IMG/VR virus record: IMGVR_UViG_3300022198_000832
Location: 1-46,768 of that record
DNA: 46,768 nt
Reading direction: 5' to 3' (one strand)
Source: a virus
Part shown: piece after piece, positions 3,740-35,407 of the stretch
How positions within the stretch are numbered: the stretch's first letter is position 1
How the letters are laid out: the number at the start of each line of letters is the position of its first letter
The notes under the pieces: generated by a model
Told to the model about the DNA's origin: nothing
Database searches by the model: none
The model's input: the letters and a program-made list of their open reading frames with translations, nothing else
Program-made: the position numbers and the translations under genes

Positions 3740-4192
3740 TTAATATAAATGCAGAATATCTTCTGGTTTATCTATTGTTGCGATGATTTCATCATCGTTC
3801 AAAATACGGTGTTCACCATATTTTGTTTTAAATCTAGAACCGGCATATCTACCGTAGATTACAAATTGACCTTTCTTACACCAAGGACCTTTTGGAAATT
3901 TTTCTTTATCTTGATAACAAAGATCACCCATCTCAACGACTAAACCTACAACGGTTGTCATTTGAATAGTTTCACTTGCATTATCAGTAAGATAAATTCC
4001 ACCTTTAGTTTTTTTAGGACCCGCATAAGGTCTAACTAAAAGTCTATAACCAACTGGTTTTGGTATTACTGAAAGATATTTTTCGATCCCTGCTGGATCA
4101 GTGGGTATCGGTGATTCTTTTGAATCAGGCGCGACACCATTATTTACTTTATTGACTCCAACTAAAGTGGAATCAGGTGTTATTATCGTCAT
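3740..4192 (-). CDS. GroES/Cpn10-like cochaperonin
   Basis: About 150 residues with a Cpn10 barrel: VGYRLLVRPYAG, then a mobile-loop equivalent (KKTKGGIYLTDNASETIQM), VVGLVVEMG, and a C-terminal strand pair ending GEHRILNDDEIIATI. GroES proteins cap GroEL; phage T4 gp31 and related proteins replace host GroES so that GroEL can fold the capsid protein. No GroEL gene is visible, so the host chaperonin would be the partner. GAGGAG lies 7 nt before the second ATG (4192), which I chose over the ATG at 4198. Its place directly above scaffold and capsid fits coat-protein folding. Confidence 0.85.
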   Translation of the reverse strand: MTIITPDSTLVGVNKVNNGVAPDSKESPIPTDPAGIEKYLSVIPKPVGYRLLVRPYAGPKKTKGGIYLTDNASETIQMTTVVGLVVEMGDLCYQDKEKFPKGPWCKKGQFVIYGRYAGSRFKTKYGEHRILNDDEIIATIDKPEDILHLY

Positions 4193-4382
4193 CGACATTC
4201 TCCTCGTTTCTCTGCAGGTCTTTAAGATCCTGAAGCAGCGTTTCTAAAGCGCTGAGTTTCCCTCTAGAATACGATAGTCTGTCGATTGTGTCTACATGGT
4301 ACACCAAATCCTCTTTGATTTGGGTAATTCTTTTATTAATGAAATGTTTGATACTTTGTAACGTATCTAAATCAAGATTCAT
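4173..4382 (-). CDS. Small coiled-coil protein
   Basis: 69 residues, mainly one charged helix with heptad-like hydrophobics (LQSIKHFINKRITQIKEDL) and an acidic C-terminus (NEENVDDDNNT). It overlaps the 3' end of the methyltransferase-like gene by 11 nt and the start of the GroES-like gene by 20 nt, so it is translated in a tightly coupled operon. No family recognised. Confidence 0.6.
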   Translation of the reverse strand: MNLDLDTLQSIKHFINKRITQIKEDLVYHVDTIDRLSYSRGKLSALETLLQDLKDLQRNEENVDDDNNT

Positions 4383-15605: not shown

Positions 15606-16109
15606 CTAACTTATTCTGAAACCATTTGAATTTTCACAGAACTCAATGAACTCCTCAACATTTTCCATTGTGAAAGGATAAGAACTTGCATAATTGTATT
15701 TACTTTGTATCCAATCCCAAGTGTCGTGATCTTCTTTGGGATAGTCTCTCGGTGCTAGTCCTTTCTTGCCTGTTTCTTTAGCAACTTTTTCAGCTAACAT
15801 TTTATGACAGATATTAACGAACTTATTATTTTCTTCTGCCTCTTTGGTGTCTTGTTCAGTCTCGTGAATAGCTTTTGAAACAGTGCCGTCTTTGATTAAT
15901 GCTCTTAACTGTTTAGCTATTTGCATAGCAGTCTCGCCACTAACTTCGTGACCGTCATTAGATTGCCAATACTTCTTATCTTCTTCCTCAATTACTCCTG
16001 TTATGTCACAAACGAAGTCGGCTAATCTTCGCCAATGCCAAACATTGTTTCTAAAGTATTCGCCTTTTTTGTTCTTGTGGTTGCCTGTGCTATATAAGTC
16101 AAAGCCCAT
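15606..16109 (-). CDS. Conserved phage protein of the GEYFRNNVW family
   Basis: 167 residues. MGFDLYSTGNHKNKKGEYFR followed by NNVWHWRRLADFVCDI, a central NDGHEVSGETAMQIAKQLR and the ending YPFTMENVEEFIEFCENSNG form a pattern I recognise from many phages and prophages. The family has no assigned function to my knowledge. Length is normal for it, so the gene looks intact. ACAAGGAGAAAATAAA precedes the ATG. Adjacent to GC-rich repeat patches on both sides. Confidence 0.75.
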   Translation of the reverse strand: MGFDLYSTGNHKNKKGEYFRNNVWHWRRLADFVCDITGVIEEEDKKYWQSNDGHEVSGETAMQIAKQLRALIKDGTVSKAIHETEQDTKEAEENNKFVNICHKMLAEKVAKETGKKGLAPRDYPKEDHDTWDWIQSKYNYASSYPFTMENVEEFIEFCENSNGFRIS

Positions 16110-16393
16110 TTTATTTTCTCCTTGTTAGTTGTTAATGTCTTACTCTTATCATATCCCATTAGTTATTCAAGAACTTTTTTTATTTTTTTTTCAAGATCTG
16201 TTGTCCGAACTTTTGCCGCCGTCAGCAGCTGGCGTCCCAGCCAGAAGCTCAATTTAATATTACCACCGAGCTTCCTACGGGCGTGCGTGCGTGGGAGACC
16301 GAGCTTCTTGCTGCCAGCACGCCAGTCCCAGCTGGCCAGGCAGCATTGTTTCACATGTGTATCCAAGACGAAGACGTGCGTGAACGGCGGGGC
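16110..16393. other. GC-rich intergenic patch with hairpins and short repeats
   Basis: About 284 nt without a supported gene. From about 16205 it is strongly GC-rich. It contains ACCGAGCTTC twice (near 16264 and 16305), GAAGCTC/GAGCTTC inverted copies, GCGT tandem units, and a hairpin in which TGCTGCC pairs with GGCAGCA around 16312-16346 with an inner CCAG/CTGG. Words such as CAGCTGG and GGCCAG are shared with the other patches. The frame reading through it on the minus strand looks like a by-product of high GC. Confidence 0.6.
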
Positions 16394-16510
16394 TCATCCT
16401 GCAGTACAAGAGTTGATTGCCATCAGAATGAGAATAGCGTACCCTGGAAGAACTAATCGTGGAGCTAGCAGCGCTGGAGGCAGCAGGAAGAGCGTTAACC
16501 AATAAATCAT
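16394..16510 (-). CDS. Tiny membrane peptide (38 aa)
   Basis: A 38-residue frame that starts in the overlap ATGA with the stop of gene 16507-16710, so translation is likely coupled. The sequence is hydrophobic (IYWLTLFLLPPALLAPRL, then YAILILMAINSCTAG), giving two short membrane stretches split by prolines. A longer frame (16275-16517) also starts here but lacks protein-like composition. I prefer the 38-residue reading because of the exact stop-start overlap. Confidence 0.5.
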   Translation of the reverse strand: MIYWLTLFLLPPALLAPRLVLPGYAILILMAINSCTAG

Positions 16511-16710
16511 AAGTCATAGTTCTCCTCTAAAACGTGTTCCGCTTGACGGTGTACAACTTCTTCTTTGACAACATCTCCAGATCCTTCTACAGCCTTCGGG
16601 AGCTCCCACTCACCCATATCAGCTTTTTCCAAAGCTTCCTTAGCGGAGGTGGCGTTAACCACCACCTCACGAGAAACCTGATCAGAAACAAGAACTAAAT
16701 ACTTTGCCAC
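16507..16710 (-). CDS. Small acidic protein
   Basis: 67 residues, with a beta-alpha start (AKYLVLVSDQVSREVVVNAT) and then ATSAKEALEKADMGEWE, similar to small phage proteins that begin with a strand and an S/T-A-x-E-A helix. Acidic C-terminus. Overlaps the upstream gene by 16 nt. Function unknown. Confidence 0.6.
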   Translation of the reverse strand: MAKYLVLVSDQVSREVVVNATSAKEALEKADMGEWELPKAVEGSGDVVKEEVVHRQAEHVLEENYDL

Positions 16711-17057
16711 GTTATACCTTCCTTGTCTGTTTTGAACTTAATAGTTTGACCTAGCTCAAGATGCATTAGATGTTTCGGTACATTGTCCAAGCGACCTTCT
16801 CCTGCTTTTTGATTTCCCTTCAGGATCACAACCCACATCTTTTCCGCTACGTTTCCTTTCTTAAACCAAACGTAAACATAGTTCTTCATAGATCTTTTCC
16901 TCTCCATCTTCTTGATGCTGAAGTATGTGTCTTTACCGTGTTCCTTACAGCTGTAGACGATGTTCTTTGCTTCTTCTGACTCTAGTGGGTCACGTTTAAT
17001 GTACTCTTGACCATAGTAGTCATTCATTTGCTTTAGTAGTTTATTGCTTATTACCAT
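16695..17057 (-). CDS. Hypothetical protein (120 aa)
   Basis: 120 residues; starts at the ATG preceded by AGGAG at a 7-nt spacing, the site lying inside the tiny gene upstream. Mixed alpha/beta, basic, with NYVYVWFKKGNVAEKMWVVI in the middle, possibly a small beta-barrel, and a C-terminus VPKHLMHLELGQTIKF that looks like a substrate- or nucleic-acid-binding strand pair. No family recognised. Confidence 0.6.
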   Translation of the reverse strand: MVISNKLLKQMNDYYGQEYIKRDPLESEEAKNIVYSCKEHGKDTYFSIKKMERKRSMKNYVYVWFKKGNVAEKMWVVILKGNQKAGEGRLDNVPKHLMHLELGQTIKFKTDKEGITWQSI

Positions 17058-17131
17058 TGGATGACTCCTAGTAATGTAAGAGCGCCTAGCCCAATTGCTA
17101 CGACACTTAGTTCAAATAATATTGTATGCAT
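17051..17131 (-). CDS. Tiny membrane peptide (26 aa)
   Basis: A 26-residue frame, MHTILFELSVVAIGLGALTL then LGVIQW, with AAAGGAG seven to eight nt before the ATG. One transmembrane helix. It overlaps the next start by 7 nt and contains that gene's ribosome binding site, so it may act as a translational coupler as well as a peptide. Confidence 0.55.
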   Translation of the reverse strand: MHTILFELSVVAIGLGALTLLGVIQW

Positions 17132-17216
17132 TTTTTTCTCCTTTGTTAGTTGTTACGAGGTCACGGAGAGGGGTGGAAAACAACCCGTACCCATCTCCCC
17201 TAGACTAGTTTAGTCA

Positions 17217-17306
17217 CTAACCTCTGTCGACTGTGCTTGAGTCAGCGTTGGTTAATTCCCGTATGACTCCTTTATCTACCCATCTTGCAAAACAGATAGA
17301 ACGCAT
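17217..17306 (-). CDS. Short leader-proximal frame (29 aa)
   Basis: 29 codons beginning just downstream of a good promoter: MRSICFARWVDKGVIRELTN then ADSSTVDRG. The composition looks like protein. There is no Shine-Dalgarno; the predicted transcript start lies only a few nt upstream, so it would be nearly leaderless. A second ATG (17313) in another frame gives a 13-residue peptide. It may be a leader peptide or chance. Confidence 0.35.
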   Translation of the reverse strand: MRSICFARWVDKGVIRELTNADSSTVDRG

Positions 17307-17317
17307 TGCACATTTCT

Positions 17318-17346
17318 AATATGGGATAGAATGGGATAAATGTCAA
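17318..17346 (-). promoter_or_regulatory. Sigma70-type promoter
   Basis: Minus strand TTGACA, 17-nt spacer, CATATT, a near-consensus pair. The spacer contains a repeated TATCCCAT/TTCTATCCCAT element. It would start transcription near 17311 and drive the small-gene run down to the large terminase. Confidence 0.6.
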
Positions 17347-17682
17347 CCATTATTTTCAAAAATATTTTCGACAAGAATTTGGTAAGAAGCGAACATTTGC
17401 TGCTGGCTTCTGGTGCTGGGACCGATGTTCAATATCCACGATCCAAGAACTCCTGATATGCGGGGCGTGGGTCGAGAAAGGAAAATGAAATAAACCAACA
17501 CCCACGCCTCACGGAACTTTACCACATTTGCAGTATGACCTGCTACCAGCTGCTACCTGGCCAGAGCTCATTAGTTCTAGTTCTTCATATAACCCAAGCC
17601 TTTTCAAACGGGACGTGGCGTAGGAGAACAGCTCCTGAGCCGCGATCCCAGCTCCTTCGGCCAGAGTTTAAGTTCAAAAAAG
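17347..17682. other. GC-rich noncoding patch with hairpin shared with 15574-15600
   Basis: About 336 nt without a supported gene. GGCGTGGGT (17464-17472) and ACCCACGCC (17500-17508) pair across 27 nt and are followed by TCA, matching the hairpin at 15574-15600. CTGGTGCTGGGA (17410-17421) also occurs at 15500-15511. GGGACGTGG appears twice near 17610 and 17695, and CTGCTACCAGCTGCTACCTGG-like words repeat in inverted form. The base composition contrasts sharply with flanking genes. Confidence 0.6.
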
Positions 17683-18105
17683 CTAATCTTTACGGGACGT
17701 GGAACGGGGCACGGGATCCTGCTTCCCCGGGCCAGGAGGGATGGCCAGCTCTGCTGCCTCCTTCACTAGTTTTTCAAGGTTCATGGAGCGGGAAACGGGC
17801 ACCGGGGAACGGGATTCACGGCACACGCGCCAGATTTCGTAAGGGCTCTCCAAGAGGGGTCTATTCAAGATAAATACTTTACCACCTGCTCTCTGATACT
17901 TAATATGCCAATTGATTTGCCACTTTGACATATTTAAATTCTTGCTGGCGTTCGCTTTGAGTTCAAGCCAAAATACTTGCTTGTTTACGACACAATGCAC
18001 ATCAGGAATTCCATTTAAAGTACTAGATTCTACGCGAGTAAAATGCCAATTTTTATTTAAATTTTTTAGTTCATTCCACAGTTTAGATTCTTTGTTTTGA
18101 GCCAT
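17683..18105 (-). CDS. VRR-NUC-type nuclease with GC-rich C-terminal extension
   Basis: 140 residues. The first 85 are a VRR-NUC/PD-(D/E)XK fold: NGIPDVHCVVNKQVFWLELK gives the catalytic D and the E-x-K, followed by SKWQINWHIKYQRAGGKVFI. Such phage enzymes are thought to cut branched or flap DNA. From about residue 90 the coding DNA becomes GC-rich and the protein turns low-complexity (ESRSPVPVSRSMNLEKLV, then PPGPGKQDPVPRSTSRKD). That tail lies inside a GC-rich patch and is likely an acquired or replaced 3' end. Confidence 0.75.
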   Translation of the reverse strand: MAQNKESKLWNELKNLNKNWHFTRVESSTLNGIPDVHCVVNKQVFWLELKANASKNLNMSKWQINWHIKYQRAGGKVFILNRPLLESPYEIWRVCRESRSPVPVSRSMNLEKLVKEAAELAIPPGPGKQDPVPRSTSRKD

Positions 18106-18671: not shown

Positions 18672-19187
18672 TTATTTGTTTTCAATAATCGCAGTTGGCG
18701 TGATGTCAATAATGTTTTTCGCCTCTCCGATTTTACTTTCAAGTTCCTCAAGTCGCTTCTCCAATTGTTCCCTGTTCATACCTTCTAAACCAATATAATT
18801 GATTTCTTTACGATCAATAAAATGACCTGCCATCTGATCTCTACGATATTGTGCAGTTATAGCTGCTGTCATTTGACCTTTCTTTTCAGAATTGTCACGC
18901 ATTCTCGCGTAATGTTTGTAAGACATAAGTTTATCTTTTTCTTCTCGTTCTAATTCCTGGGACATTCTTTTTTCAAAATATCTTACGACATGCGGATACT
19001 TATCAGGATTTAATAATCTGCTTGCTTGATCTGTGGGACCGTATTTATTTGTGGAAGTATAACCTGCTTGTTTAGCAGCTTCGACTTTCGAAATTTCGCC
19101 ATAATTAGAAACATAGATATCAACAAACTTTCTTTGCTGGGGTGTCAGCTCTGATGTAGTCTTAAGTGAATTAGGTTTCTTTGGCAT
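18672..19187 (-). CDS. terS: Terminase small subunit-like protein
   Basis: 171 residues. SELTPQQRKFVDIYVSNYGE (about 12-31) followed by KVEAAKQAGYTS is the helix-turn-helix of Terminase_2-type small subunits (L..kQ..FV..Y..........AA..AGY). A helical oligomerisation part follows, with MNREQLEKRLEELESKIGEA near the end. The protein recognises the phage packaging site and guides the large subunit. The large subunit is about 4.2 kb downstream. Directly upstream of its start is the TCTAGGAGTAAA array, a possible recognition or control region. Confidence 0.75.
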   Translation of the reverse strand: MPKKPNSLKTTSELTPQQRKFVDIYVSNYGEISKVEAAKQAGYTSTNKYGPTDQASRLLNPDKYPHVVRYFEKRMSQELEREEKDKLMSYKHYARMRDNSEKKGQMTAAITAQYRRDQMAGHFIDRKEINYIGLEGMNREQLEKRLEELESKIGEAKNIIDITPTAIIENK

Positions 19188-19264
19188 ACAAACACTATAT
19201 ACCCATCTCTTAGGAAAATAAATATTTATAAAAAAATTCTACCCCCCTCTCGTAAGGAAATAGG

Positions 19265-19492
19265 TTTACTCCTAGAATTTCTAGGAGTAAAAACAAATCT
19301 AGGAGTAAATCTAGGAGTAACTTTATCCTTATAAATCAGTAGTTTAGAGCAATTACTCCTAGCTCTCCTAGCTTTTTTGCTTATTTTCCAAAAAAAATAT
19401 TTTGATTTTTTTTTCTAAGTAACGGGTATATACAAAATTCTAGGAGAAACCACGTAAAACCTAACTTTTTTAACATCAGTTCTAGGAGTAAA
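19265..19492. repeat. Iteron-like array of TCTAGGAGTAAA in both orientations
   Basis: Full or near copies: 19265-19276 (inverted), 19280-19291, 19298-19309, 19310-19320, 19353-19362 (inverted core), 19364-19371 (inverted partial), 19439-19449 (TCTAGGAGAAA) and 19481-19492. The first two form a perfect 12-bp inverted repeat around ATT, and the third and fourth are head to tail at 12-nt spacing. The flanks are very AT-rich with long A and T runs. The array is typical of an initiator-binding origin or a multi-site operator. Confidence 0.8.
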
Positions 19493-19542: not shown

Positions 19543-19571
19543 TTGACATTACTGTCGCACCACTGTACTGT
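19543..19571 (+). promoter_or_regulatory. Plus-strand promoter with consensus -35
   Basis: TTGACA is perfect; the -10 at a 17-nt spacing is TACTGT, a weak match. Alternative -10 sequences (TGTAAT, TTATAT) lie slightly further. It is the only apparent signal for the plus-strand RNA ending at the terminator 19702-19738. Confidence 0.4.
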
Positions 19572-19577
19572 AATTTA

Positions 19578-19738
19578 TATGTTTTTCATATCAGTACCCT
19601 TATTTAACTTAGGAGGAACAAATGACTTGACTATGCAATCAAAATAAACTAACTAGGGCATCTTGATTATGTTTCATAATCATCCTTTCTAAGTTAGTTG
19701 GAAAAGGCCAGGTCGGGGAGACTTTACCTGGCCTTTTT
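19578..19738 (+). ncRNA. Candidate plus-strand small RNA with two-codon minigene
   Basis: A short transcript is implied by a promoter-like sequence and a strong terminator with no long gene between. It folds well: TAACTTAG (19605-19612) pairs with CTAAGTTA (19689-19696), enclosing a GATTATG-TTT-CATAATC hairpin (19665-19681). AGGAGG (19611-19616) stands 5 nt before ATG-ACT-TGA, so the reading frame is Met-Thr-stop; ATG-CAA-TCA-AAA-TAA follows. The long stem overlaps the ribosome binding site, so translation may be switchable. Existence of the RNA is inference. Confidence 0.45.
19702..19738. terminator. Bidirectional intrinsic terminator
   Basis: AAAAGGCCAGGT and ACCTGGCCTTTT pair perfectly (12 bp) around CGGGGAGACTTT, with TTTTTATT following on the plus strand and TTTTCC on the minus strand. 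It ends the minus-strand 2OG-oxygenase gene (stop at 19737) and the candidate plus-strand RNA. Confidence 0.85.
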
Positions 19739-20324
19739 ATTCTATAACAAATTTAAAATTACCTGACACAGTAATTCTAGGTTTATTAACCTTATAAAAA
19801 GGATATACAGTGTGATATAAAACAGCCGGAAATATAAAAGCTGATTGATTATAAGTTTTATCTATTGCAAAACAAGTTGTCTTATTATCCCCTAAATTAT
19901 TTGTAGTTAAAAATTCTAAATTTCCAGCTCTAAAACAACTTATATCTTTTGATTTACTATATTTAATTTGTTCTTCAATTGTGTAAGGAATATCAACAAA
20001 TATTATAAACGAAAAACAACCTGTATGATTGTGTAAAGGATTAAACTCATGTTTTTTCTGATAATTAACCCACATATCAATTAATTTTACTGGAACATTT
20101 TTTGAAAACACATCATATCGATGGTTCATATCATTTACTAAAGATTCATTATTAAAAATAAGGTTAAGTAAATATTTTTCAAATATAGGTATGGCCTCTA
20201 AAATTCTATATTGTTCATTTATGTTACCTGCTAATCTTTTGTTATTTTTTACAGTTTTATTTTTTATTATCTTTTTAAGTTTATTAAATAAGATATCAGG
20301 TATCTTATCTACCTTCAAAATCAT
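19737..20324 (-). CDS. Putative 2OG-Fe(II) oxygenase
   Basis: 195 residues, Lys/Asn-rich. The second half has the layout of phage 2OG-FeII_Oxy proteins: WVNYQKKHEFNPLHNHTGCF gives the first histidine, FSFIIFVDIP the core strand, LYHTVYPFYKVNKPRITVSG the distal His and the 2-oxoglutarate-binding Arg. Marine phages often carry such enzymes; known members hydroxylate proteins, nucleic acids or small molecules, and this substrate is unknown. The gene ends at a strong terminator. The N-terminal 80 residues are helical and unassigned. Confidence 0.7.
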   Translation of the reverse strand: MILKVDKIPDILFNKLKKIIKNKTVKNNKRLAGNINEQYRILEAIPIFEKYLLNLIFNNESLVNDMNHRYDVFSKNVPVKLIDMWVNYQKKHEFNPLHNHTGCFSFIIFVDIPYTIEEQIKYSKSKDISCFRAGNLEFLTTNNLGDNKTTCFAIDKTYNQSAFIFPAVLYHTVYPFYKVNKPRITVSGNFKFVIE

Positions 20325-26393: not shown

Positions 26394-26595
26394 GATATCT
26401 CCTAAAAAATAACCGCCATAACCAAGAACGAATCAAAGATATGCCAGTAAATATTATAGCTATGTGTATACTATCTAAAATAGTTGGATGCAAATCAAAA
26501 AAAGGAAATATAACTAATTGAATACCAATTGCTAATAAAAGTCCTGATCCAACATCACATATTGCTTCAATTAGAGGCCACACATGCCCTCGCAC
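26383..26595 (-). CDS. Small phage membrane protein (DUF7220-like)
   Basis: 70 residues with two transmembrane stretches: AICDVGSGLLLAIGIQLVIF and SIHIAIIFTGISLIRSWLW, then a basic end (RLFFRRYHDR). The second segment pattern IFT.iSliRSw.wRr.F is one I know from small phage proteins. Overlaps the PAPS-reductase-like gene by 25 nt. Function unknown. Confidence 0.7.
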   Translation of the reverse strand: MRGHVWPLIEAICDVGSGLLLAIGIQLVIFPFFDLHPTILDSIHIAIIFTGISLIRSWLWRLFFRRYHDR

Positions 26596-27380
26596 TCTTG
26601 ATTGAATAAATCAATTTTTTCTTTTTCTTTAAACTTAACTTGATCTAAGGGTACACATTGTCTGTGTACAAAGTTTTTAACTTTAGGATTATGTTTGCGC
26701 ATATCTTTATCAAATTGCACTGCTTCTTTAAATTCATCAGGTCTATTGTTTTTCATATCTAACCAAAAAGCATCATCGTGAAAAGGACAACCAATACAAG
26801 CTGATTTAACTGGTATTTTAAATCCTTTACCTTCATACCATTTTAAACAATCAGTTCGTGACATTTTCTTTTCTATTAAAGGCCATCTATTTTTTTGCCA
26901 CCAAAATCTAGAAGGCTTCATACGCATAATCTCATCCATAGATATACCTACCCATACTTCTACAAATTTATCTTTAGGGAATCTTTGTCTTGGTACTAAA
27001 CCCATAATCTCTCTAATTTTTTTAGCTATAGGAGTTATCTTATATTCTCTCGTACATTGTCTTCTTCCCATACCTTTCTTACCATTTTCATTTAGGGTAT
27101 AGAATGGAGCGCTCGCAAACTGATTACCACTGGGTCCGAGAGCCGTGAGTATATCATCTTTGATGTTACCTTTTTTAACAATGTGTACAGGATAACTTAG
27201 AATGGTTCTAAGGTAGTTTAAATGTTCTATTACAGGTTTAGGTTCCCAACCTGTGTCTGCAAATACAGCTGCATCAGGTTTATCTCCAAAGGCTCCCTGA
27301 TCTGCCATCAAGGCCATAGTAGAGCTTTGTACGCCTGCTCCTAATGATAATATTCTTAACGCTGGTTTAGTACTGTCCAT
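26571..27380 (-). CDS. PAPS reductase/adenine nucleotide hydrolase-superfamily protein
   Basis: 269 residues. LRILSLGAGVQSSTMALM (8-25) is the N-type ATP pyrophosphatase loop; PDAAVFADTGWEP follows as in PAPS reductases and DndC-like proteins. A C-terminal cluster SRTDCLKWY, then SACIGCPFHDDAF, carries cysteines that may bind a metal or FeS cluster. Such phage proteins are often next to DNA methyltransferases, and a DNA-modification role is possible. It overlaps the methyltransferase 3' end by 25 nt. The reaction is not known. Confidence 0.8.
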   Translation of the reverse strand: MDSTKPALRILSLGAGVQSSTMALMADQGAFGDKPDAAVFADTGWEPKPVIEHLNYLRTILSYPVHIVKKGNIKDDILTALGPSGNQFASAPFYTLNENGKKGMGRRQCTREYKITPIAKKIREIMGLVPRQRFPKDKFVEVWVGISMDEIMRMKPSRFWWQKNRWPLIEKKMSRTDCLKWYEGKGFKIPVKSACIGCPFHDDAFWLDMKNNRPDEFKEAVQFDKDMRKHNPKVKNFVHRQCVPLDQVKFKEKEKIDLFNQECEGMCGL

Positions 27381-33115: not shown

Positions 33116-34519
33116 ATGAAAAAATTTGAATATAAAACAAAACCTTTTGAACATCAGCGCACAGCATTAACAAAAGGAGCACAATATGGTGCCTATGCCT
33201 ATTTTATGGAAATGGGTACAGGTAAAACTAAAGTTGCTATTGATAATGCTAATTATTTATTTTCAACAAAAGCAATAACACACGCATTGGTTGTAGCACC
33301 TAACTCTGTATATCGTAATTGGATTAAAGAAATAGAAACACATTCTACAAACGAATCAACTATTGTAGTTCATAAAGATAAAACTATTTATGGTAAAGGT
33401 AAACTTAACTGGTTTTTAATTAATGTTGAAGCATTGAGTCATAAAAGTGGAGTAGATGTAATATCTAAATATATTAATAAGTATGGTCGTCAGATGATTT
33501 GGATTCTAGATGAATCCACCACAATAAAAAACAAATCAGCAAAAAGAACACGAAACATCTGTAAACTAGGTAAACTAGTAGCGTACAAAAGAATCCTAAC
33601 AGGCTCCCCAATAACAAAATCTCCATTGGATCTATATACACAATGTGAATTTTTAAGTCCAGACCTTTTAGGTTTTGATTCGTATTATACTTTTAGAGCT
33701 AGATATGCAGTGATGCAACAAGTTGAAATGGGTGGCAGACAAGTTTTATTTCCTAAATACTATACAAATTTAGATGAGCTTACTGAAAAATTAAAATTAT
33801 TTTCTTATCGGGTTAAAAAACAAGATTGTTTAGACTTACCTGAAAAACTTTATACAACTAGAAAAATTATTTTAAGTTCAAAACAAATAGAAATTTATGA
33901 ACGCTTAAAAAAACAAGCTTATGCTATTGTAAATAGTCAGGAAGTAAGCTTTGCAAATAAACTTACAGAAATTTTAAGATTACACCAGGTCGCAAATGGA
34001 TTTGTTAAGTCAGATGAAGGTGAAATAAATGTATTTGAAGATTGTCCTAAGTTAAAAGAATTACTAAGTATATTGGAAGAGGCTGATGGTAAGTTTATAA
34101 TATGGGCTAATTATGTACAAAACATAAAAACGATAATCAATAAACTTAAGGAGGTCTACGGTGCTAACTCTGTGGTTTCTATTTTTGGAGAAGTTTCAAC
34201 AGAAGATAGGCAGGAAGCTGTCCGAAGGTTCCAGGATGATAGTAGCTGTCGTTTTTTTGTTGGTAATCCTTCCACTGGTGGTTATGGTCTTACTCTTACA
34301 GCTGCCTCTTATGTGGTTTATTTCAGTAACTCGTACAACCTTGAAGTTAGAGAACAATCAGAAGATAGAGCACATCGAATCGGACAAAAGAAAAATGTAA
34401 CTTACATTGATTTGATTGCAGAAGGTACGATTGATGAATTTATAGTCTCTGCGCTAAGTAAAAAAATGAAACTCAGCGCAGAAACTCTTGGTGAGCAAAC
34501 CAAAAAGTGGCTTACTTAA
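33116..34519 (+). CDS. SNF2-family DEAD/H-type helicase
   Basis: 467 residues. Walker A AYFMEMGTGKTKVAIDNA (about 29-46), motif Ia ALVVAPNSVYRNWIKE, motif II MIWILDESTTIKNKSAKR (DEST instead of DEAH), motif III ILTGSPITKSPLDLY, and helicase-C motifs FVGNPSTGGYGLTLTAA and REQSEDRAHRIGQKKNVTYI. It is a dsDNA translocase expected to remodel DNA-protein complexes, for example at forks or in recombination. It is the only large plus-strand gene and has its own divergent promoter. It converges with the Hsp20 gene (8-nt overlap). Confidence 0.93.
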   Translation: MKKFEYKTKPFEHQRTALTKGAQYGAYAYFMEMGTGKTKVAIDNANYLFSTKAITHALVVAPNSVYRNWIKEIETHSTNESTIVVHKDKTIYGKGKLNWFLINVEALSHKSGVDVISKYINKYGRQMIWILDESTTIKNKSAKRTRNICKLGKLVAYKRILTGSPITKSPLDLYTQCEFLSPDLLGFDSYYTFRARYAVMQQVEMGGRQVLFPKYYTNLDELTEKLKLFSYRVKKQDCLDLPEKLYTTRKIILSSKQIEIYERLKKQAYAIVNSQEVSFANKLTEILRLHQVANGFVKSDEGEINVFEDCPKLKELLSILEEADGKFIIWANYVQNIKTIINKLKEVYGANSVVSIFGEVSTEDRQEAVRRFQDDSSCRFFVGNPSTGGYGLTLTAASYVVYFSNSYNLEVREQSEDRAHRIGQKKNVTYIDLIAEGTIDEFIVSALSKKMKLSAETLGEQTKKWLT

Positions 34520-34934
34520 TTTTTATATCTAAAGGTTTTATTTCTTCAGGTTCATTAACGCCTAACTTCACAGTTAAAACGCCATCTTCCATTTCAGCTT
34601 CATTAACAACTACATCTTGATGTAAAGAAAATTGTTTAAAGAATTTTCTAGTTGCTAAACCTTTTTCAATATAGTCTTTTTCTTTGTCTTCTATTTGACC
34701 AGAAATAGTTAATACACCTTCTTTGTATTGAACTTTAACATTCTTTTTATTGAATCCTGCTAAACCCAACTCAAGACCGTATTCACCTTTTCCGTATTTT
34801 ACTACATTGTAGAATGGAAACGATTGTACTTTTGACCAACTATCAAAGATAGAATCAAATGCATCACCAAACATTTTGTCTGAATGATTCCAAACGTCTT
34901 TATTGAACTTATTAATTAAATCTAATGCTGTCAT
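34512..34934 (-). CDS. Small heat-shock protein (Hsp20/alpha-crystallin)
   Basis: 140 residues. The alpha-crystallin domain spans about 40-130: GLELGLAGFNKKNVKVQYKE, LTISGQIEDKEKDYIEKGLA, TRKFFKQFSLHQDVVV, and EDGVLTVKLGVNEP. Such ATP-independent holdases prevent aggregation and are frequent in marine phages. AAGGAGG precedes the ATG. It lies with SpeD and the nuclease rather than the capsid genes, so it may act early as a general holdase. Paired with the GroES-like gene elsewhere in the genome. Confidence 0.9.
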   Translation of the reverse strand: MTALDLINKFNKDVWNHSDKMFGDAFDSIFDSWSKVQSFPFYNVVKYGKGEYGLELGLAGFNKKNVKVQYKEGVLTISGQIEDKEKDYIEKGLATRKFFKQFSLHQDVVVNEAEMEDGVLTVKLGVNEPEEIKPLDIKIK

Positions 34935-35002: not shown

Positions 35003-35407
35003 TTATTTATGGTATTTCAAGAGACCACCTGAAATATCTACTAGACCTGTTTCTCTATTTAAAAACTTATATTCTATTTTAGTTATATCGTAATCGTCTT
35101 TTATTTTTTTACAAATCTTTTCAGGATCAAATTCACCACAAGAATAAACATCAAATTGCATTAAAGCAGGGTGTGGTTCATCCCAAACATGCATTACTAT
35201 ATGAGAAGTTTCTATGATAGCTGCACCTGTGATTCCGCGGTTACCCGGTACATTATGATATTTAACATAAGGACCCATCAATACTTTCATATCAATGGTA
35301 TCAATAAAGTCTCTTAACCAACTAGACAAAATTTCTTCATCCATTGGAGGCCTTATTGCTTCGGCTCTTATAATTAAATGTTTGTGGACTAATAATCCTT
35401 CTTTCAT
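35003..35407 (-). CDS. speD: SpeD-like pyruvoyl decarboxylase
   Basis: 134 residues. The signature IIETSHIVMHVWDEP holds the maturation serine and catalytic His (S-H-x3-H), and FDVYSCGEFDP the conserved Cys. In bacterial SpeD the residue before the serine is Glu (ESH); here it is Thr (TSH), with Glu one further back. Serinolysis would give a pyruvoyl cofactor. The family's usual product is decarboxylated SAM for spermidine; some members instead decarboxylate ornithine or arginine. Overlaps the nuclease stop region by 4 nt. Polyamines could aid DNA packaging. Confidence 0.85.
   Translation of the reverse strand: MKEGLLVHKHLIIRAEAIRPPMDEEILSSWLRDFIDTIDMKVLMGPYVKYHNVPGNRGITGAAIIETSHIVMHVWDEPHPALMQFDVYSCGEFDPEKICKKIKDDYDITKIEYKFLNRETGLVDISGGLLKYHK

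Follow-up and report, generated by a model that had tools for sequence, protein, structure and literature searches.

Does the strong ribosome-binding site and Met-Thr-stop minigene found in an intergenic gap of this phage genome belong to a dedicated RNA, and what would the phage gain from translating two codons? The locus lies in a 46.8-kb virus record, IMG/VR IMGVR_UViG_3300022198_000832; "the window" denotes the whole stretch analyzed, 46,768 nucleotides. The closest matches of its DNA polymerase, TerL and TerS are those of Pelagibacter phage HTVC023P (72%, 77% and 60% identity, respectively), and by its PolA, TerL and TerS the window phage counts as a relative of the HTVC023P-type pelagiphages. 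A search of genome contigs for a host returned distant Bacteroidota MAG matches only. To our knowledge, no natural two-codon minigene has been traced across a family.

Setting and anatomy of the predicted RNA locus

Nearly all genes of the window lie on the minus strand, and the RNA locus is on the opposite strand, within a 550-bp gap that has TerS on one flank and a 2OG-Fe(II) oxygenase gene, ending at the terminator, on the other (Table 1). Positions 19260–19490, upstream of TerS, hold an AT-rich array of direct and inverted TCTAGGAGTAA copies; relatives show a similar array, which is a candidate origin, packaging or TerS-binding site. GC skew gives no origin signal, and searches for tRNA and tmRNA found none. 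G+C content is 0.45 at positions 16001–18000 and about 0.33 elsewhere, and the window carries host-like genes for a GroES-type co-chaperonin (3740–4198), Hsp20 (34512–34934), S-adenosylmethionine decarboxylase (35003–35407) and PAPS reductase (26571–27380).

The sequence-only reading had placed AGGAGG 5 nt before ATG-ACT-TGA, with no longer frame following and a 12-bp terminator with a T-run closing the unit. Coordinates read directly agree with each of these statements: the spacer in the window is AACAA, the plus strand holds no longer reading frame after the minigene, and a perfect inverted repeat runs into the T-run. The same anatomy supports the proposal of a discrete, terminated plus-strand RNA. 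The sigma-70-like promoter was assigned by eye; an automatic scan lists nothing at 19543–19571 under its consensus rule, and homologs carry a TTG... -35-like and TA...T -10-like pair at the same place. The plus-strand RNA is predicted to fold at -48.6 kcal/mol (z = -4.6 against dinucleotide shuffles). Intergenic position, a predicted promoter (by eye), an intrinsic terminator and no long ORF are the marks of a stand-alone small RNA, and the two-codon ORF with its strong Shine-Dalgarno (SD) sequence is of the bar type. The strict pattern AGGAGG-N3-9-ATG-NNN-stop has a single instance in the window, where shuffles give an expectation of 0.12, so that the motif by itself is weakly significant and could arise by chance; its significance comes from its conservation in 26 distinct homologs.

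Table 1. Features of the RNA locus and the genes on either side of it, in window coordinates
Feature	Position	Strand	Remark
TerS	18672–19187	minus	one flank of the gap
Sigma-70-like promoter	TTGACA 19543–19548; TACTGT 19566–19571	+	17-nt spacer; by-eye assignment
Predicted RNA transcript, ~165 nt	19578–19740	+	putative start; end taken as the T-run; covariance model match
TAACTTAG	19605–19612	+	read directly
Shine-Dalgarno AGGAGG	19611–19616	+	0–1 parsimony changes per column, 26 homologs
Minigene ATG-ACT-TGA (Met-Thr-stop)	19622–19630 (ATG 19622–19624, TGA 19628–19630)	+	all columns invariant
CT after stop (UGA-CU stop context)	19631–19632	+	0 changes; next column has 2
B element AACTAACT	19647–19654	+	local pairing partner of C-block; helix 1
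Hairpin TGATTATG-TTT-CATAATCA	19664–19682	+	8 pairs, covarying
C-block CTTTCTAAGTTAGTTGG	19685–19701	+	complementary to SD region and to B; nearly invariant
CTAAGTTA	19689–19696	+	read directly
Intrinsic terminator	19702–19740	+	12-bp perfect inverted repeat 19702–19713 / 19726–19737; T-run to 19740
Terminator loop GGGAGACT	19716–19723	+	GNRA-type GAGA tetraloop closed by G-C and G.U; invariant
2OG-Fe(II) oxygenase gene	19737–20324	minus	other flank of the gap

Distribution and conservation in relatives

Relatives were collected as 65 loci in IMG/VR found via TerS, each of which was scanned for the parts of the RNA. The RNA is present at the loci that cover the region and have a TerS identity of at least about 83%, and all but four of these RNA-carrying close relatives have AGGAGG-N4-6-ATGACTTGACT. 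Scans of the whole of IMG/VR for the minigene pattern, the C-block and the hairpin recovered the same family together with matches lacking the other RNA parts; L069, L082-83, L087, L090, L094, L096 and L100, as well as L109, L111, L115, L119, L120 and L126, were rejected as motif matches in whose context the rest of the RNA is absent. The isolate-phage collection contains no match to the RNA, and neither HTVC023P nor HTVC027P appears in the set of carriers recovered. The best Rfam matches are weak, far below gathering scores, and assign the RNA to no family. The best reading of these searches is that this is a new small-RNA family, adding an RNA without an Rfam match to the HTVC023P-type pelagiphage group; the papers on that group that were text-searched make no mention of a small RNA.

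Two groups of more distant loci differ in content. In L039–L041 (66% TerS identity), the SD-ATG opens a 42-codon frame and no minigene is present. At the terminator position these loci (4496–4520 in L039) carry GGTTCGAGTCTCCCCTCCCCAG on the opposite strand, which resembles a tRNA T-arm and 3' end, Gln-like by eye, and may be an attachment site or a tRNA-antisense loop; no further contigs with it were found beyond these three. In L042, L043 and L050–L055, the same slot upstream of TerS contains a promoter-like sequence, then a hairpin with CCTTTCGTTA behind it, and a terminator, after which comes a small plus-strand membrane-protein gene, an attenuator-like leader arrangement.

Alignment, parsimony and pair counts were carried out on 26 distinct homologs, whose TerS tree spans 2.14 substitutions per site. 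Under Fitch parsimony on this tree, each of the 11 consecutive columns of ATGACTTGACT shows 0 changes, whereas fourfold TerS sites average 4.7 changes (n=36, four of them with no change) and the 15 columns that follow the block have 2–8 changes each. The terminator loop GGGAGACT likewise shows 0 changes in its 8 columns. A Poisson model at the fourfold rate, which ignores rate variation among sites, gives p ~3e-23 for 11 zeros. There is little doubt from these counts that the SD-minigene block is under selection, and conservation in 26 homologs rules out a chance motif. The homologs were initially picked by a pattern requiring the nine letters ATGACTTGA, and the invariance of these letters was checked separately in the TerS-selected set and in the C-block and hairpin scans. 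The codon comparison in related genomes that the sequence-only reading had proposed finds ATG-ACT-TGA invariant in the 26 homologs. The Thr codon is fixed down to its third base, as are the stop type and two bases past the stop, and neither another codon or stop nor a longer frame was seen in any family member in the TerS set or in the minigene-pattern, C-block and hairpin scans. The distance between SD and ATG varies by indels, while the SD is essentially invariant and the minigene invariant, which is the behavior that a ribosome site should show. In other viral contigs, 111 of the 115 non-family instances of AACTAAGGAGGAA-N-ATG among the matches listed, in which loci may repeat, start a long frame. 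From these patterns, we consider it quite likely that the minigene is translated.

Predicted folding of the RNA and the subclade without the minigene

Structure was assessed by RNAalifold and pair counting on the 26 homologs. The inner hairpin shows compensatory changes at 5 of its 8 pairs with 99.5% of cells paired, the terminator stem at 7 of 15 pairs, and the B:C helix (helix 1) has one compensatory pair with 98.5% of cells paired. In total, changes on both sides occur at 13 of 28 pairs versus 4.9 in shuffles, none of 500 shuffles reaches 13, and slid controls fall to 3–7. A conserved secondary structure with compensatory changes is a further mark of a stand-alone small RNA.

Two elements, the SD region and B, are complementary to the C-block, which can therefore cover the SD or pair with B. 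Its predicted duplex with the SD region averages -12.8 kcal/mol versus -5.4 with shuffled C-blocks across the 26 homologs, and the complementarity is individually supported at p ≤ 0.02 in 25 of them (p = 0.09 in L006); the duplex with B is weaker, at -9.9 kcal/mol. The earlier proposal that TAACTTAG/CTAAGTTA pairing covers the ribosome-binding site holds insofar as the SD can be covered by its own RNA, but the exact 8-bp helix is confined to the window and its nearest kin, with 78% of cells paired and no compensatory change; in essentially all homologs, SD/C-block complementarity persists via other registers. The SD is predicted to be mostly paired (mean unpaired 0.18 versus 0.28 in shuffles). 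A 5' CUCUUU arm was considered as a selected anti-SD and dropped; mean accessibility is lower than in shuffles, but not individually significant. The C-block also resembles the 3' end of 16S rRNA. In L117 (about 420–460) and L118, judged unrelated contigs, the gene ribosome-binding site CCAACTAACTTAGAAAGGATGAATATG is complementary to the C-block over its full 17 nt and beyond.

Loss of the minigene with retention of the terminator had been named in advance as a pattern that would refute the sequence-only reading. It occurs in L009, L011, L020 and L059, and not in the other close relatives. Among the minigene carriers, these four loci make up a nested clade whose sister is L004 (support 0.994). 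They have lost the SD, minigene and hairpin but retain TTTTCATA and TTCTTTGGTTAAGTTAG, along with a sequence resembling a promoter and a terminator that includes GGGAGACT. L058 (52% TerS identity) has only the terminator with GGGAGACT. The RNA must therefore have a role beyond the minigene, and since its 3' part is kept in the L009 subclade, and the loop in L058, this part is older or more basic. By this distribution, the minigene is an added module, strongly kept in most of the clade. A CsrA-sponge idea based on GGA motifs was considered and set aside, few such motifs being kept in the L009 subclade.

Possible functions and comparison with known systems

Minigene toxicity peaks at two-codon ORFs, is higher with a stronger SD and varies with the last codon; ACT is in the toxic last-codon class, and UGA is less toxic than UAA as a minigene stop (PMC8708949). 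Our preferred explanation, advanced tentatively, is a stand-alone small RNA of the phage on which ribosomes load at the Met-Thr minigene, so that ribosomes or peptidyl-tRNA are titrated. The sigma-70-like promoter would transcribe a ~165-nt RNA whose 5' half would serve as a ribosome landing site, where fMet-Thr would be made before the UGA-C stop, and whose 3' end is the terminator with the conserved GAGA loop. Pairing of the C-block with the SD region or with neighboring B would gate ribosome access. Each initiation would occupy a ribosome and release peptidyl-tRNA(Thr) or a slowly terminated product, as for lambda bar, and host translation may be lowered or retuned during infection. UGA-C is a weak stop context, used at the prfB frameshift site, and would lengthen ribosome residence whether the minigene acts by titration or in cis.

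Titration is the most likely use, with stabilization of the RNA by protecting ribosomes or an sRNA core acting in trans nearly as likely; it is slightly favored because a cis-acting minigene would have no gene downstream to regulate and because the identity of the codon is fixed. Against it stand the minigene-free L009 subclade, the lower toxicity reported for UGA than for UAA, the axe-txe minigene ATGactTAA, reported to be non-toxic and cis-acting (PMC8708949), the SD predicted to be mostly paired, and the conservation of two nucleotides beyond the stop, for which a pure sequence motif would equally account. A stronger version is possible at rather low probability: a gated ribosome trap, built from a self-paired SD, a drop-off minigene of two codons and the slow UGA-C stop, that would act as an RNA-encoded translation inhibitor by sequestering ribosomes, Thr-tRNA or RF2 in SAR11-like hosts. 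If true, it could contribute to host translation shut-off. Ribosome-deprived infected SAR11 cells have been reported for HTVC027P, with HTVC023P as the probe control (PMC11066056). A link of the RNA to such cells is only a suggestion, tentative because neither phage was found among the carriers. More broadly, the phage probably uses the minigene to interfere with, or borrow, host ribosomes. With a strictly selected minigene in relatives of very abundant marine phages (SAR11 phages), carried on a small, cloneable RNA, it becomes possible to test directly a long-standing question, namely whether phages really turn minigenes against the translation of their hosts.

Four other explanations were weighed. 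It is possible, at rather low confidence, that the minigene is translated for the RNA's own benefit in cis while the 3' part (C-block and GAGA terminator) is the effector in trans. A ribosome parked at the strong SD or at the slow UGA-C stop would block RNases or switch the fold, with C pairing with B while the ribosome sits on the SD, an idea that fits the A:C and B:C pairing alternatives. Minigenes are known to stabilize transcripts in cis: the axe-txe minigene ATGactTAA is translated, not toxic and cis-acting, possibly via mRNA stabilization, and a ribosome at the EHEC LEE4 mini-ORF stabilizes its transcript (PMC8708949). In the L009 subclade, the minigene is gone while the promoter, C-block core (TTCTTT..TAAGTTAG) and terminator loop are still present, and L058 retains the GGGAGACT loop. 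However, the fixed Thr third base and stop type exceed the needs of mere ribosome parking, and a trans-acting part has no known target: the complements AGTCTCCC and AGTCAAGTCAT of the minigene block and the loop occur nowhere else in the phage genome.

It is unlikely that the SD and ATGACTTGACT are untranslated, serving as single-stranded motifs that a protein recognizes or that pair with host RNA as antisense. Such motifs would account for an invariant block that runs 2 nt past the stop, for the predicted pairing of the SD and for equally invariant non-coding blocks in the same RNA, but not readily for a perfect SD, ATG and in-frame stop with ribosome-compatible, indel-tolerant spacing, in a context that ordinary genes also use (among the matches listed). 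A leader or attenuator remnant of a lost downstream gene is improbable. Although L042–L055 have a leader with a terminator before a small membrane-protein gene, and gp20 of HTVC023P is transcribed in the direction of the RNA, the next gene in the window is a minus-strand gene whose end lies at the terminator, and a remnant would not keep zero changes over 2.1 substitutions per site. A short minus-strand peptide (MKHNQxxPLV...) opposite the RNA, with an ATG after AGAAAG in 25 of 26 homologs, is very improbable and was rejected, since its length varies from 7 to >30 codons, the second base of codon 6 is variable, a compensatory change in the hairpin has removed the ATG in L007, and the T-tract, SD and ATG all point to the plus strand.

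The locus shares features with four known kinds of system. Like leader-peptide attenuators, it combines an SD, a tiny ORF, mutually exclusive pairings and an intrinsic terminator; unlike them, it has no plus-strand gene 3' of the terminator in the window. Phage-encoded trans-acting sRNAs such as the P1/P7 c4 antisense RNA (reviewed in PMC12197685) are similarly short and structured with conserved blocks, whereas the window RNA has a ribosome site and minigene, and two of its blocks have no target within the phage. The axe-txe minigene mg2 of plasmid pRUM (ATG-ACT-TAA) has the same sense codons, Met-Thr with ACT, but it lies just upstream of txe, on which it acts in cis, while the window RNA has no downstream gene and its stop is TGA. 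Phage lambda bar is likewise a phage two-codon ORF with an SD; barI is ATG-ATA-TAA, and the bar minigenes lie within longer transcripts. Studies of lambda bar (EMBO J 1991 and 1998) reportedly lead one to expect that such minigenes load ribosomes and release peptidyl-tRNA. In contrast to lambda bar, the window minigene sits in a putative stand-alone terminated RNA, uses the codon ACT and the stop UGA-C, is invariant across a phage clade, and has an SD that is predicted to be gateable by the C-block.
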